A stretch of DNA of 64,000 bases, taken from contig NZ_CP046564.1 in NCBI RefSeq assembly GCF_009818105.1, positions 310,001 through 374,000 on the forward strand. The letters are read 5' to 3'. Below are positions 9,397-39,503 of the stretch, in pieces. The stretch's first letter is position 1. Each line of letters begins with the position of its first letter. The DNA is from Bacillus sp. N1-1. GTDB taxonomy: Bacteria; Bacillota; Bacilli; Bacillales; Guptibacillaceae. The notes beneath the pieces were generated by a model. That model did not search any database. It was not told where the DNA came from and was given only the letters and a program-made list of their open reading frames with translations. The position numbers and the translations under genes are program-made.

Positions 9397-10437
9397 ATGG
9401 CACAAGCATACAGGCAGGCAGGCGTTAACATAGAAGCAGGTTATGAAGCGGTGGATCGCATTAAGCCCCACGTAAAGAAAACAATGCGCAAAGGTGTAAT
9501 GGGCGGACTTGGTGGTTTCGGTGGCATGTTCGATCTGTCAGAACTAGATTATGAGAAACCAGTTCTTGTTTCAGGAACGGACGGTGTTGGAACAAAGCTC
9601 ATGCTTGCTATTCAACTCGATCAGCATGATACGATTGGCATTGATTGTGTGGCAATGTGCGTAAATGACGTTGTCGCACAAGGGGCAGAGCCTCTCTATT
9701 TTCTTGATTACATTGCAACTGGAAAGCTTGCACCAGAGCGAATTGAGGAAATTGTAAAAGGTGTGGCTGAAGGCTGTTCACAGGCAGGCTGTGCCTTAAT
9801 TGGTGGAGAAACAGCTGAAATGCCTGATATGTATCAAGAAAACGACTATGATCTTGCTGGATTTACTGTGGGAGCTGTTGAAAAGTCGAAGCTTATTACG
9901 ACAGAGAATGTGAGAGAAGGAAATGTCCTAATCGGTCTTGCTTCAAACGGCATTCACAGCAACGGTTTTTCCCTTGTACGTAAAGTGTTGCTGAAAGATC
10001 ATAAGATGGATCTTGCAACCTCTTATGATGAGCTTGATTCAACGCTTGGAGAGGCGTTACTTGCCCCGACGCGTATTTATGTTAAACCGGTTTTAAATGT
10101 TCTTAAATCGCACACTGTGAATGGGATTGCCCATATAACAGGCGGTGGTTTTGAAGAGAATATTCCGCGTATGCTTCCTGAAGGACTGGCAGCCCAAATT
10201 GATTATGGCTCATGGCCGATTCCTCCAATCTTTGATTTAATCGAAAAGAAAGGAAATCTTGCTCGTAAGGAAATGTTTACAACGTTTAATATGGGCGTAG
10301 GTATGGTACTTGCTGTGCCGGAAGATGAGGCTGTTAATGTCATTAAAGCTCTTGAACAGGATGGCGAACGAGCTTATATGATTGGGCGCGTAGTCAAAGG
10401 AGAAGGAATTGAATTTGGAGGCGGTGACCTGTCGTGA
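9397..10437 (+). CDS. purM: AIR synthetase PurM
   Basis: Cyclises FGAM to AIR with ATP. The 346 residues are normal for PurM. Motifs are [13 protein letters not shown] around 60-72, [18 protein letters not shown] around 86-103, [11 protein letters not shown] near 142 and [14 protein letters not shown] near 247-260. The start ATG follows CGAAGGAGG. The stop overlaps the purN start (GTGA), so PurM and PurN translation are probably coupled. Confidence 0.97.
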
Positions 10438-14332: not shown

Positions 14333-16072
14333 ATGGCGAAAAGAAAAAATTTATGGACGAAGCAGCAATTACGACAACACGTCCAAGTTGTGTCTGGAGA
14401 ACTGCCTCCATCGATCGTTTTCTATCATGCAACGTATTTGAATCACGGATTAAAAAAATGGGTTACATCCAATATATGGGTATATGAAGATCGGATTGTG
14501 TACGTAGGCGATGATCTACCTGAAAAGCATCCATCGACTGAATGGATTGATTGCGAAGGACGATGCCTTGTGCCAGGTTACATTGAACCACATGCACACC
14601 CATTTCAACTATATAATCCCCTTACTCTTGCGCGATATGCATCTCAGCGGGGAACGACGACAATGATGAATGATAACCTTCTTTTACTTCTAGGTTTGTC
14701 AAAAGAGAAAGCGCTTACATTAATTGAAGAGCTTGATCAGTTTCCTGTTTCCATGTATTGGTGGGCACGATATGATTCGCAAACAAAGCTTTTAGATGAA
14801 GATATGATTACAAATAAACTGATGAAGGAATGGCTTGCGCACCCATTAGTCATTCAGGGTGGGGAACTGACCGCATGGCCTGATGTACTTAGTGGAGATG
14901 ATGAAATTCTAGAATGGATGCAAGAGACGCGAAGACTTGGTAAGCCTGTTGAAGGTCATTTGCCCGGTGCATCTCTTGCCACATTAACGAAGATGGGACT
15001 GCTGGGTGTTTCCTGTGACCATGAAGCGATGACGGGTGAAGAGGCCCTGCGCCGCTTAGAGATGGGCATGATGACATCACTTCGTTATTCTTCGATAAGG
15101 CCAGACCTTCCTGTCATACTTGAATCTTTACTTAAAAAAGGGGTCACTTCCTTTGATCGAGTGATGATGAATACAGATGGCTCAACGCCTTCCTTCTTAG
15201 AAAATGGCACAACAGACAAGTTAATTGAAATTGCGCTTGAGAAAGGAGTATGCGCAGAAGATGCGTATTCAATGGTGTCATATAATGTGGCAAATCACTA
15301 CGGAATAAGCGATACGCATGGTATGATAGCACCGGGTAGAGTCGCTCATATTAATATCCTTGAATCAAAAGAAAAGCCCCTCCCTGTTGCCGTACTTGCG
15401 CGTGGAAAATGGTTAAAGCGTGATGGAGAAGAAATGGACCAGGACTGGTCTTTTGAGTGGGAAAAGCATGGACTTACGCCACTTAACAACACCTGGAAAA
15501 TACAGCCTAACGATTTAACGTTTTCAGGTCCAGCAGGAATGGAAATGATTAATGCGGTGATTACAAAGCCGTATAACTTATCTGTTGAAACGTCCGTAGA
15601 CGAGCTTCCAGCAGGATCAGATGAAAGCTTTATTATGCTCCTTAGTCGCGAAGGGAAATGGCGGGTAAATACGATTATTAAAGGCTTCGCGAATCGTGTG
15701 AAAGGTTTTGCCAGTAGTTTTTCGAACACGGGTGATTTTATTCTTATTGGTAAAAATAAAGCAGATATGATGACGGCTTTTAATCGAATAAATGAAATTG
15801 GTGGAGGAATCTCACTTGTAGAAAACGGAGAAGTTATTTCCGAAATCCAATTACCTCTGATGGGAAAAATGTCCGATCTTCCGCTTGAAGACCTGATCAA
15901 AGAAGAAAAAAGAATGATTCAAGAACTAGAGGATAGGGGCTACACATACAAAGATCCTGTTTATAGCCTGCTGTTCTTCTCTTCAACGCATTTACCTTTT
16001 ATTCGATTGACACAGCAAGGAATTTATGATGTAAAGAGGAAAATGGTACTTTTTCCTTCGATAATGCGTTAA
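14333..16072 (+). CDS. yerA: Adenine deaminase-like amidohydrolase, YerA-like
   Basis: Amidohydrolase-superfamily protein of about 579 residues with an adenine-deaminase C-terminal domain. By family it would hydrolyse adenine to hypoxanthine, feeding salvage, but activity of the YerA branch is uncertain. Metal-site elements seen are PGYIEPHAHP (His-x-His) near 78, VIQGGELTAWPDVL with the bridging-type Glu, GHLPG, SCDHEAMTGEEALRRLEMGM and NTDGSTP, so the ligands look intact. The ATG at 14333 is chosen because GGTGAT lies just upstream; GTG 14324 and ATG 14327 are alternatives. Its position after pur and before yerC is conserved. Confidence 0.82.
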   Translation: MAKRKNLWTKQQLRQHVQVVSGELPPSIVFYHATYLNHGLKKWVTSNIWVYEDRIVYVGDDLPEKHPSTEWIDCEGRCLVPGYIEPHAHPFQLYNPLTLARYASQRGTTTMMNDNLLLLLGLSKEKALTLIEELDQFPVSMYWWARYDSQTKLLDEDMITNKLMKEWLAHPLVIQGGELTAWPDVLSGDDEILEWMQETRRLGKPVEGHLPGASLATLTKMGLLGVSCDHEAMTGEEALRRLEMGMMTSLRYSSIRPDLPVILESLLKKGVTSFDRVMMNTDGSTPSFLENGTTDKLIEIALEKGVCAEDAYSMVSYNVANHYGISDTHGMIAPGRVAHINILESKEKPLPVAVLARGKWLKRDGEEMDQDWSFEWEKHGLTPLNNTWKIQPNDLTFSGPAGMEMINAVITKPYNLSVETSVDELPAGSDESFIMLLSREGKWRVNTIIKGFANRVKGFASSFSNTGDFILIGKNKADMMTAFNRINEIGGGISLVENGEVISEIQLPLMGKMSDLPLEDLIKEEKRMIQELEDRGYTYKDPVYSLLFFSSTHLPFIRLTQQGIYDVKRKMVLFPSIMR

Positions 16073-16227
16073 ACTATAACAAAGTAAACCCTTAACGAAG
16101 TAAAGTACATGAATTTCTCAAGTTCAATTGTTAAAATGAACGCAAAGTGGAATAATAGCGCATCATGATGAGTGAAGCATAGAAAACATAGACCGATACA
16201 GAATGAAGTAAGGAGAGTGGATGTATA

Positions 16228-16524
16228 ATGCAAATTGATAAACTTCGAGGTAAAACACTAGACCAATTGTTTGAAGCGATTCTTTCATTAAAAGATTTAG
16301 AAGAGTGTTATTTATTCTTTGACGATTTAGCGACAGTGAACGAAATACAATCTCTAGCTCAGCGATTGGAAGTAGCAAGAATGCTTCGTGAAGGGTTTAC
16401 CTATCATAAAATTGAAACGGAAACAGGCGCAAGCACAGCGACGATTTCCAGAGTGAAGCGTAGTTTAAATTATGGAAACGACGGCTATCAAATGACGCTT
16501 GATCGCGTCCATAATAACGAGTAG
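16228..16524 (+). CDS. yerC: TrpR-like DNA-binding protein YerC
   Basis: A 98-residue protein of the TrpR/YerC-YecD family. The helix-turn-helix region is around residues 42-78 (EIQSLAQRLEVARML, then TGASTATISRVKRSL, a typical recognition helix). No tryptophan repression role is implied; the target is unknown. The start ATG follows AAGGAGAGTGGATGTATA. It is monocistronic, closed by a strong terminator, and sits between yerA and pcrB as in B. subtilis. Confidence 0.9.
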   Translation: MQIDKLRGKTLDQLFEAILSLKDLEECYLFFDDLATVNEIQSLAQRLEVARMLREGFTYHKIETETGASTATISRVKRSLNYGNDGYQMTLDRVHNNE

Positions 16525-16526
16525 AG

Positions 16527-16556
16527 AAAATGAGCCGGTTTCCGGCTCATTTTTGT
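16527..16556 (+). terminator. yerC terminator
   Basis: TGAGCCGG and CCGGCTCA (16531-16549) form a GC-rich hairpin with a TTT loop, followed by TTTTTG and preceded by AAAA. It ends the yerC transcript just before the repeat region. Confidence 0.9.
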
Positions 16557-16587
16557 TTTGAGCGTTTGCTGTAATGCAGTTTAGCGA

Positions 16588-16680
16588 TTTCGCGGAATTA
16601 TTTAAGGAATCGCGGAAAAAAGGTTCGATTTCGCGGAAAAAATCAGATTATCGCGGAATTATTAAGAATTTCGCGGGAAT
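16588..16680. repeat. Five TCGCGG motifs at 20-bp period
   Basis: The hexamer TCGCGG, usually inside TTCGCGGAA, starts at 16590, 16610, 16631, 16651 and 16671: spacings of 20, 21, 20 and 20 bp, close to two helical turns. The bases between are A/T-rich and not conserved. There is no coding potential. Similar TTCGCGGAA tracts occur, to my recollection, between genes in other Bacillaceae. Confidence 0.8.
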
Positions 16681-16717
16681 ATGACGCGGGTCTATTTCAC
16701 GCGTTCAAATGAAATGC

Positions 16718-17250
16718 CTCCAGCGCTTGTCGAGTCTAAACGCCCACTTCCGCTTTTCATGATCCAGCTGGAGCCTCCAGACCCTCGGTCACTTCACCCT
16801 CCAACTCGAACACAAAGACCGTGTTCAATTTGGAGGGCTCCAGTGCCTGCCGGATCTAAACGGAGGCTTCCGCTTTTAGTTGATCCAGCTGCAGTGGGCC
16901 AAATCTTCCGGCTGTTTCGCCCAATCGAATGAGACAAAAAGCGTCTCAGTCTCATGGGCTCCAACATCCTGCAGATTTAAACGGGCCCACTTCCGCTTTT
17001 CATTGATCCAGCTGCAGTGGGCAGACTCTAGGTCACTTCACCTTTCAACTCGAACACAAAGACCGTGTTCAATTTGAAAGGTTCCAGTGCCTTTCGAGTC
17101 TAAACGCCCACTTCCGCTTTTCATGTATCCAGCTACAGCGTCCAGCCTCTCGATCGCTTCACCCCATCAAAAGAACACAAAGACCGTGTTCTTTTGATGG
17201 GGCTCCAGCGCTTGTCGAGGCTAAACGGACGCTTCCGCTTTTAGGGTATT
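16718..17250. repeat. Tandem array of about 120-bp hairpin repeat units
   Basis: Four full units and a terminal half begin with CTCCAG or a close variant at 16718, 16838, 16959, 17082 and 17203 (period 120-123 bp). Each has a module A, with conserved TCTAAACG, CTTCCGCTTTT and ATCCAGCT blocks, and a module B, a hairpin with inner arms GAACAC/GTGTTC around loop AAAGACC. Module B copies lie at 16797-16837, 16919-16959, 17041-17081 and 17162-17202. Open frames here are chance products of the repeat; no ribosome site or recognisable protein is seen. Confidence 0.85.
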
Positions 17251-17253
17251 CTT

Positions 17254-17262
17254 TGATATAAT
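17254..17262 (+). promoter_or_regulatory. Extended -10 promoter for pcrB-pcrA-ligA
   Basis: TGATATAAT is a perfect extended -10. There is no convincing -35 at 17 bp, because that stretch is the end of the last repeat copy (CTTCCGCTTTT). It starts 35 nt before the pcrB ribosome site. Confidence 0.5.
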
Positions 17263-17297
17263 CCAATTTATGAGGAAAAGTGGGAGGAAGGGTTAGG

Positions 17298-17987
17298 ATG
17301 TTTGATTTTCTAGAGTGGAAGCATGTGTTTAAGCTGGATCCGAATAAGGAGATTGAAGATTATGATCTTGAGGCGATTTGTGAGTCTGGGACGGATGCGG
17401 TGATTGTTGGTGGTAGTGATGGTGTGACGCTTGATCGGACGTTAGATTTACTTGCTAGAATTCGCCGTTACGCGGTACCATGTGCTCTTGAGGTATCGAC
17501 TGTGGAAGCAGTGACCCCAGGATTTGATTTTTATTTTATTCCAACTGTGTTAAATACGGAAGACAGCCGCTGGGTAACTGGTTTGCATCATGAAGCTGTA
17601 AAAGAGTTTGGTGAGATTATGAATTGGGATGAAATTATTATGGAAGGGTATTGTATTCTGAATCAGGATTCTAAGGTTGCTCAGTTAACTTCTGCTCATA
17701 CTAATCTTGATGAAGAAGATGTACTCGCTTATGCGCGAATGGCAGAAAAGATGTTCAAACTGCCAATTTTTTATGTGGAATACAGTGGAACCTATGGAGA
17801 CAAAGAACTTGTTCAGAAGGTAAGCCGGGTTCTTGATGAGACGAAACTTTTCTACGGTGGAGGAATTGATTCGCCGGAGAAAGCAAAAGAAATGGCTGCT
17901 TCTGCAGATACTGTTATTGTTGGGAATATTATTTACGATAATATCAAACAGGCGATTAAAACAGTTGCTGCTGTGAAAGGAAATTGA
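17298..17987 (+). CDS. pcrB: Heptaprenylglyceryl phosphate synthase PcrB
   Basis: TIM-barrel prenyltransferase joining sn-glycerol-1-phosphate to heptaprenyl diphosphate, the bacterial counterpart of archaeal GGGP synthase. About 229 residues. Seen: FKLDPNKEI near the start, [13 protein letters not shown] (phosphate loop) around 38-50, [10 protein letters not shown] around 157-166, [16 protein letters not shown] near 185-200 and [10 protein letters not shown] near 205. The start is the ATG at 17298, after GGGAGGAAGGG; a GTG at 17280 precedes the ribosome site and is rejected. First of a pcrB-pcrA-ligA-camS run. Confidence 0.93.
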
Positions 17988-23602: not shown

Positions 23603-24577
23603 CTATTCTGATAGAGCTTTTTCTAGTGTTTGAATGTTTTGTTCCATTAAAGTGAAATACGTTTCATCATTTTCGATATCTTCTTCTGTTAAGACAGAGA
23701 GGTTATGAATGCGAAGCGTCTCAAGGCCGAGCTCTCGTTGAACTGCTTTTGCTGGCTTTGGCGTAGCATTTTGTTCAAAAAGCATATACTTCAAATTGTA
23801 ACTTTTAGCTGTTTCAATGATATCTTCTAATTGTTTTTGTGTAGGTTCTTGAGATGGTGAAAGGCCAGACACACTTAATTGTTCAAGTCCATAACGGCTT
23901 TCCCAGTAGCTATAGGCATCGTGCGAAATAAGGAACTCTTTTTTTGGTGCACTGTCAGCCATTTCACGGAATTCTTTATCTAGAGCTAAGAGCTCTTCCT
24001 CTAATGATGCAAAATTAGACTCAAATATTTTCTTATTATCAGGATCAATTTCTATAAGTGCATGTTTAATATTTTCGGCCTGCTGGATAGCTAGGTTTGG
24101 ATCAATCCAAATGTGTGGATTTACATTGCCGTGATCATGACCCTCGTGCCCTTCTTCATCAGCATGCTCTCCTTCTTCATCAGCATGTTCTTCATGTTCT
24201 TCTTTTGTTTCATCAAAGTGAATTCCTTCAGCGGCTTCAAGCGTCATGACGTCTTCATTTTTTAATGTATCTTTAGCAGCATCAGCAAATCCTTCCATGC
24301 CTGCTCCATTGTAAATAAACAAATCGGATTCAGCTAACTCTGTCATTGTTTTCGTCGTTGGCTCGAAACTATGTGCGTCACTGCCAGGAGGAATGATGGA
24401 TTCAGCGGTTACGTGTTCTCCGCCAATTCGTTCAGCAAAATATTCAAGAGGATAAAGTGTTGTATAAATGGTTAGCTTTCCATCCGCATTTGAGTCTGAA
24501 TCTTCTTGACCACAACCGACTAGGATAAGCGTAGATATAGATAGTAAGAATGCCACTGTTAAAAAGCGATTTTTCAT
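23603..24577 (-). CDS. znuA: Zinc ABC transporter substrate-binding lipoprotein (ZnuA/AdcA)
   Basis: Captures zinc outside the membrane for an ABC importer. It has 324 residues, with lipobox ILVGC near residue 22. Metal-ligand motifs are GSDAHSFEPT, NPHIWIDP and SHDAYSYW. A His/Glu/Asp-rich loop (HADEEGEHADEEGHEGHDHG, about residues 131-150) is typical of zinc rather than manganese binders. The gene stands alone: no permease or ATPase gene is adjacent. A Zur box lies upstream, so expression should rise when zinc is scarce. Confidence 0.92.
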   Translation of the reverse strand: MKNRFLTVAFLLSISTLILVGCGQEDSDSNADGKLTIYTTLYPLEYFAERIGGEHVTAESIIPPGSDAHSFEPTTKTMTELAESDLFIYNGAGMEGFADAAKDTLKNEDVMTLEAAEGIHFDETKEEHEEHADEEGEHADEEGHEGHDHGNVNPHIWIDPNLAIQQAENIKHALIEIDPDNKKIFESNFASLEEELLALDKEFREMADSAPKKEFLISHDAYSYWESRYGLEQLSVSGLSPSQEPTQKQLEDIIETAKSYNLKYMLFEQNATPKPAKAVQRELGLETLRIHNLSVLTEEDIENDETYFTLMEQNIQTLEKALSE

Positions 24578-39335: not shown

Positions 39336-39503
39336 TTAGCAATCCTTTCCATTAACGAAAGCAGCGCCAACGATGATAAGAAGAATGAACAATACAACGA
39401 TTAGCGCAAAGCCATTCCCGTAACGAGCACCACCAACCTGGTTTCCGCAACCGCCGTATCCAGCGCCACCAACCTGGTTTCCACATCCGTAACCATAACT
39501 CAT
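39336..39503 (-). CDS. YjcZ family sporulation-type small protein
   Basis: A 55-residue Gly/Tyr-rich protein: [20 protein letters not shown] with the motif GNQVGGA repeated at about 8-14 and 20-26, then one transmembrane helix [18 protein letters not shown] and an NGKDC end. This is the YjcZ/YhfH-like sporulation family layout. The start is the inner ATG (39501-39503), with AAAGGAGATGATTTC before it. Its function in the spore or membrane is unknown. Confidence 0.85.

Follow-up and report, generated by a model that had tools for sequence, protein, structure and literature searches.

The gap between two genes of Bacillus sp. N1-1 that we take to be yerC and pcrB is occupied by a tandem array of folded repeats, whose structured strand is antisense to both genes. 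The window in which the array lies, a stretch of 64,000 nucleotides, is part of a 4.50-Mb contig. The features of the locus are given below in window positions; bit scores refer to R1, a covariance model built from 21 copies of the repeat in the same genome.

16228..16524, plus strand: gene upstream of the array, presumably yerC-like
16718..16757, minus strand: partial unit at the distal end of the array, retaining only the 5′ part of the structured (minus) strand
16762..16878, minus strand: unit U1, copy 1 of an earlier sequence-only reading (genome 326762-326878); R1 match of 128.8 bits
16883..17001, minus strand: unit U2 (copy 2), of the other sub-type, with a GGGCC..TGAGAC stem; R1 match of 87.8 bits
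17006..17122, minus strand: unit U3 (copy 3); R1 match of 134.3 bits
17127..17243, minus strand: unit U4 (copy 4); R1 match of 134.7 bits
17244..17297, plus strand: conserved flank upstream of pcrB with an extended -10-like motif, TTTGATATAAT, recognised by eye
17298..17987, plus strand: gene taken to be pcrB, the conserved neighbour that served as the query for named loci

The sequence-only reading had described a four-copy tandem repeat at 16718-17250, and both the coordinates and the sequence proved to be as claimed. The repetition is real, but the array (16718-17243) comprises one partial unit in addition to four complete units, which are 117, 119, 117 and 117 nt long and are separated by 4-nt linkers. 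The array does not adjoin a stop codon; its end adjoins the promoter region of pcrB instead, where the extended -10-like motif TTTGATATAAT is absent from the promoter-scan listing. Behind the yerC-like gene, GAGCCGG/CCGGCTC with a T-run (about 16531-16554) looks like a terminator by eye and is not listed by the terminator scan. Degenerate 20-21-nt TCGCGGAA repeats lie at 16585-16678, between the yerC gene and the array, and similar TTCCGCGA or other short repeats are found ahead of some other arrays. Elsewhere, the window contains a purine riboswitch at 961-1062 (Rfam RF00167, 80.8 bits) and short tandem repeats at 24150-24191 and 39418-39489, whose periods of 21 and 36 nt are multiples of three, so that these repeats perhaps lie within coding sequence.

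A full unit folds into a single rod. Its base is an AGC/GCT pairing, followed by a seven-pair stem and by one of six pairs that carries an AAAC bulge on its 3′ side, and the upper part is built of a short stem, a variable stem of eight to nine pairs, and a GAACAC/GTGTTC hairpin. In U4, an inverted-repeat scan finds a perfect 17-bp inner hairpin at 17162-17202. The modules A and B that had been distinguished from the letters do form one unit, but they are not two modules, as A pairs with the 5′ part of the same unit and makes up the rod's lower portion. The outer arms given for copies 1, 3 and 4 (CCCTCCAA/TTGGAGGG, CCTTTCAA/TTGAAAGG, and CCCCATCA/TGATGGGG), the inner stems, and the constancy of the AAAGACC loop in three copies were all confirmed. 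Copy 2 indeed has a differing inner stem, but it is not a mutated version of its neighbours: it belongs to a second sub-type found elsewhere in the genome. On the plus strand, the fold of U3 has an energy of -50.2 kcal/mol, where shuffled sequences average -24.3 (z -7.45, with none of 200 shuffles as good), and the fold of the whole array has a z of -11.06. A pseudoknot between the AAAGACC loop and an upstream GGTC was considered and abandoned, since copies that have GATC still show this loop and the segment covaries within a stem instead.

The strand on which the repeat had originally been read turned out to be the less stable one. Its complement folds better in 56 of 59 unique copies from the same genome and in 130 of 132 unique copies of a genus-centred alignment (A4), where the mean advantage is about 9 kcal/mol and DNA parameters give 131 of 132. 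In a set of 61 diverse copies drawn from this and other genera (A5), 59 favour the complement, and all 61 do so when G-U pairs are disallowed. Because the asymmetry holds with G-U disallowed, its main source is probably a set of conserved purine-purine internal loops, which are pyrimidine mismatches on the opposite strand; as the copies have inherited these loops from common ancestors, they are not independent tests of the strand. There is also a modest excess of G-T over A-C on the structured strand, 49 versus 23 in the Watson-Crick columns of A4 (16 columns for, 10 against) and 62 versus 28 over all pairs of A5.

Among the 21 copies underlying R1, 95.7% of paired cells pair, compared with 80.3% after shuffling (none of 500 shuffles as high); two-sided cells number 136 versus 43 shuffled, and 24 of the 37 pairs have changed on both sides. 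Further pair types in these copies (alignment A2) are not clearly above the shuffled level, 44 versus 40.8, with 54 of 500 shuffles as high. For A5, 209 candidates were thinned at 90% similarity to 66, five odd ones were left out, and the remaining 61 were aligned on the strand opposite to that of the sequence-only reading. Here, 92.8% of cells pair versus 64.5% shuffled, two-sided (compensatory) change affects 32 of 34 pairs, and the 617 two-sided cells compare with 194 in shuffled alignments (0 of 500 shuffles as high) and with at most 149 in slid-partner controls. The evidence for covariation over the 61 copies is strong, as judged from shuffles that ignore the kinship of the copies and not from a formal R-scape result. 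The statement that the fold is kept while the sequence is not holds beyond the window, and neither of the two outcomes named in advance as refuting it was seen, as further copies exist and those in other genomes still pair.

The time course of these changes bears on the two causes that had been offered for them, selection on the fold or template-switch repair. Between copies one to four differences apart, changed pairs are two-sided in only 8 of 58 cases, and the two-sided share climbs with distance through 0.41, 0.53 and 0.77 to 0.78, the pairs of copies compared not being independent of each other. Between distant copies, about 77% of the changes are two-sided. Such a pattern fits mutation first and compensation later, which could be given by either selection on the fold or template switching, and the two proposals are not cleanly separated. 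The paired cells of A5 are distributed as 1832 Watson-Crick, 62 G-T, 28 A-C, and 120 other; nearly pure Watson-Crick pairing with few G-T is also what template switching leads one to expect. At the same time, several unpaired features are kept across genera, namely the GTTT bulge and the CGACA/TCGAG and GGA/GAA loops.

In the genome of Bacillus sp. N1-1, R1 finds 70 matches at E<=0.01, which are grouped into 30 clusters. The clusters mix sub-types, and the sub-type of U2 occurs also at, e.g., genome positions 26007, 672900, 871043 and 1708263. Integron attC cassettes were considered because the units change order, but units within one cluster are consecutive, separated by gene-free linkers of a few nt. 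An unsystematic look at the 30 clusters revealed no case of a gene flanked by two elements, the arrangement of an autonomous copy. One cluster, at 1621253-1621848, is a row of five near-identical tandem units, of which the first three are identical to each other, as are the last two; it is a sign of recent local amplification.

Judged by the neighbouring pcrB, the closest named relatives belong to Pseudalkalibacillus or carry other Bacillaceae names in their records, and we infer that the genome lies in or next to Pseudalkalibacillus. The module A part had been likened to a widespread Bacillaceae intergenic repeat, and the distribution bears this out: the covariance-model search that had been proposed as a check has now found further copies both at home and in relatives. 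R1 matches at E<=1e-4, from no more than 45 scored candidates in each genome, are present in 65 of 81 genomes (the own genome included) and in 44 of 57 genera; all 13 of the 13 other members of the genus are positive, with at least 43-45 matches each. When more candidates were scored, three of the genomes (G001, G009 and G008) yielded 59, 98 and 87 matches. In a sample of 398 genomes from the phylum, searched with strict filters and nine candidates scored per genome, so that weak copies can be missed, matches were confined to the own genome, four others of the order, and one of the class; the last (G248) is by eye a different hairpin and looks unrelated. One blastn query with U3 against each of the plasmid and phage collections gave no match. 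No Rfam family reaches its gathering score on the elements tested, and the best sub-threshold matches are to eukaryotic microRNA and lncRNA models, e.g., mir-9465, at 25.8 bits versus the 63 needed.

The position of the arrays relative to genes follows a rule that is specific for the strand. On the structured strand, 39 of 124 clusters have the start of the array no more than 10 nt from a stop codon; on the other strand, 0 of 124 do. The stop-adjacent clusters are 13 of 30 in the own genome and 26 of 94 in other genomes (opposite strand, 0/30 and 0/94), the latter being divided into 13 of 43 within the genus and 13 of 51 in other genera. In 38 of the 39, the spacing to the stop codon is -4 to +4 nt. 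A stop codon was counted if it belonged to a mechanically found ORF of at least 80 codons, and intergenic placement was likewise judged by mechanical ORFs; under this definition, 85 of the 124 clusters, the one in the window included, have no detected stop codon within 10 nt. By eye, four more clusters of the own genome (517658, 605880, 864716 and 1621253) adjoin the stop triplet of a shorter or unlisted frame. The clusters of other genomes come from loci fetched for their element scores or for pcrB and are thus not a random sample, and the alignments behind the cluster set hold 67 of 67 and the best 150 of 173 matches. Transcribed RNA genes are flanked as well: in three rRNA operons, a unit on the rRNA strand begins 4 nt past the Rfam 23S match and stops short of 5S, a position that is the one indirect hint of expression as RNA. 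These near-identical single units are located in the 23S-5S spacers at genome positions 14294, 301017 and 740941, and matches with the same score (104.1 bits) are present in G001, G008 and G009.

Comparison of relatives shows how the arrays change. Directly upstream of pcrB, a match is found in 21 of 80 named loci, always in the orientation seen in the window; these are eight Pseudalkalibacillus-like loci, B. taeanensis, two Fictibacillus (one match being weak), one locus filed under B. subtilis, and nine from records of Rossellomorea or Bacillus sp. Pseudalkalibacillus caeni (L084) has no match upstream of pcrB. The stretch at L084 1-120 resembles, by eye, the 3′ end of a group II intron rather than an array. 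In all eight loci L074-L081, the final unit extends to locus position 9946 or 9947, the pcrB ATG being at 10001. The order of the units is not preserved. The window has U1-U2-U3-U4, P. hwajinpoensis AmN0-1 (L074) has another unit followed by U1-U4-U2 (identities of 96.6, 97.4 and 100%), L075 has U2-U1-U3 (98.3, 94.9 and 97.4%), and L076 has U4-U2 (97.4 and 100%). Thus, U2 is identical to a unit upstream of pcrB in both L074 and L076, whereas different units of the window share only 66-82% identity. The more distant L077-L081 have two units each, which match window units at 63-94% at best (64.1 to 94.0 if the highest value for each unit is taken). Simple one-ended growth of the array was considered as well, but finds no support in the unit order upstream of pcrB.

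Occupied and empty sites are also seen behind gnd and zwf. Of 30 genomes compared for each gene, 4 have a stop-adjacent model match at gnd and 6 have one at zwf; remnants are recognised by eye at four more zwf loci, which leaves 20 of 30 zwf loci with neither a model match nor a by-eye remnant. The gnd flank is common to G000 and G005 up to TAAAAGA, and an array follows only in G000; G000, G008 and G009 have Zwf proteins of 100% identity (rounded) and differ in their arrays. In one further genome, gnd matches in two overlapping pieces (G004:C5:176442-177852), which may be due to a frameshift or an assembly error. The 5′ junctions of units are more alike within than between arrays, 0.655 versus 0.545 shuffled (0 of 5000 shuffles as high; 17 arrays, 57 units), a similarity that could result from tandem duplication. 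In the own genome, a motif scan places a partial unit distally in 21 of 30 clusters and proximally in none of 30; in other genomes, the distal side has a partial in 52 of 94 clusters and the proximal side a unit-like start in 8 of 94. For the distal motif, to which the control is confined, the counts in random nearby windows are 10 of 600 and 27 of 1782.

Several known classes of bacterial repeats resemble the element in part. According to PMC3733652, REP/BIME sequences with their RAYT transposases are intergenic, dispersed and palindromic, occur as singles and in clusters, and often lie near or overlap coding ends, all of which applies here; REP termini with GTAG often supply the stop codon itself, and E. 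coli REPs that lie no farther than 15 nt from a stop codon have been discussed as translation regulators (PMC12306157). Unlike REP/BIME, the unit is about 117 nt long (117-119 in the window) instead of 20-40 bp, and its consensus on the structured strand, with GAAAAGCGGAAG at the 5′ end and GCTGGAC at the 3′ end, has neither a GTAG nor a CGTC tag. Nor does the presence of the Y1 transposase domain PF01797, the partner family of REPs, track that of the element: it is found in 59 of the 65 element-positive genomes and in 12 of the 16 others, and six genomes have element matches but no PF01797. In the own genome, PF01797 has three matches, the listed one (4192433) lying about 27 kb from the nearest cluster. 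A partnership with a RAYT is doubtful on this distribution, and no mobilising enzyme was found. Small non-autonomous repeats next to genes, such as bcr1 and the MITE-like RUP, NEMIS and ERIC (likewise named in PMC3733652), are similar in habit; they differ in that neither terminal inverted repeats with target duplication nor a clean duplication on both sides could be shown at the junctions of the present element, whose outermost pairs are AGC/GCT with an adjoining internal loop and whose 5′ junctions are locus-specific.

Closer to home, Bacillus halodurans, a Bacillales relative, has intergenic stem-loop families, Bhal-1 (74 bp, 36 copies) and Bhal-2 (76 bp, 50 copies), as given in PMC2267715. 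They are shorter and were compared by description, not by sequence; they could be relatives of the element. The 52-nt and 20-21-nt tandem repeats of Bacillus have a constant unit size, a variable sequence and partial conservation between strains, and in this resemble the present arrays, from which they differ in unit size; the TCGCGGAA repeats at window 16585-16678 fit the 20-21-nt class by size, and no 120-121 nt class is mentioned in the examined portions of PMC8161180 or retrieved by a term search of its main text. No published description of the element was found in the literature searched, most subscription journals lying outside it.

What, then, maintains the fold and distributes the copies? 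A host-serving RNA at the start of the 3′ untranslated region, whose structured strand would alter translation termination, mRNA decay or processing and whose fold would be kept by selection, is a serious but rather unlikely answer. It agrees with the better fold of the strand that is sense to the adjacent gene, with the tight -4 to +4 nt spacing, with the transcribed position of the units within rRNA operons, and with the surplus of G-T over A-C, and the spacing of REPs near stop codons provides a precedent (PMC12306157). However, this surplus is small, and wobble cannot be the main source of the strand asymmetry, given the 61 of 61 copies in which it persists with G-U disallowed; many clusters, that of the window among them, are not behind a detected stop codon; and the patchy occupancy of gnd and likewise zwf, where most of the 30 genomes have no element, speaks against a needed host function. 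That nothing recognises the fold, and that the palindromes become perfect through template switching as the DNA is replicated, multiply by slippage and are shuffled among loci by gene conversion, we consider improbable. It would account for the mostly Watson-Crick cells of A5, for head-to-tail arrays such as the five near-identical units at 1621253, and for mosaic arrays with locus-specific ends, but perfecting should erase the unpaired bulge and loops that persist over genera, changes between close copies are mostly one-sided, and both the stop-codon placement and the appearance at new loci are left unexplained.

It is most improbable that the units act as one-sided terminators or insulators on the plus strand, with the rod and GCTTTTC halting read-through ahead of the next functional sequence. 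GCTTTTC or a close variant does end most plus-strand units, and by eye the plus 3′ end adjoins stop codons or promoter regions. Yet the T-run is only four long, the conserved loops favour the other strand, and a terminator scan of 16000-17400 gave 0 sites versus 1.5 expected by chance, though the same scan missed the by-eye terminator behind yerC.

Dispersed over the genome and the order, conserved in its fold, set in many clusters behind stop codons or 23S rRNA, alternating between occupied and empty sites and reordered from one relative to the next, the element is read here, at about an even chance, as a non-autonomous, non-coding palindrome of about 117 nt that is interspersed in Bacillales genomes in the manner of REP/BIME and spread by a trans-acting activity. 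The locus-specific 5′ junctions and the partial copies at distal ends also favour this reading. Weighing against it are the failure to find a mobilising enzyme, the distribution of PF01797, the unit order, the lack of a clean target duplication, the 85 clusters away from a detected stop codon, the 8 of 94 proximal unit-like starts, the 20 of 30 zwf loci without an element, the further pair types of A2, the 16-to-10 split of the G-T columns, and the blank plasmid and phage queries. It works like a REP but is not filed as one, since the REP tag and size are missing and no transposase follows it. The presumed trans-acting activity would recognise the folded strand near its 5′ end and would add units either to a 5′ end already present or to A-rich sequence immediately following a stop codon. 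Copies deficient in pairing would stop spreading, and the fold could in this way be kept without any need of the host. Local tandem duplication and ectopic gene conversion would then mix the units, and the array in the yerC-pcrB gap would be one such product. A bolder version of this reading, very doubtful in our opinion, is a mobile module that is copied in the form of a structured RNA or of a single strand and comes to lie just behind stop codons, perhaps via mRNA, by cleavage or reverse copying at terminating ribosomes; a selfish repeat would thereby form the start of host 3′ untranslated regions and a part of the 23S-5S spacer across Bacillales.

The element is a folded repeat of many Bacillales genera that has a placement rule and turns over between sister species, yet has no Rfam family. 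If it is mobile, there would be an unrecognised mobilising activity in Bacillales; if it acts as RNA, many unrelated genes would share a 3′ element at the stop codon. In both cases the arrays could be of use for typing, and yerC-pcrB, zwf, gnd and 23S-5S offer sites for ready natural experiments.
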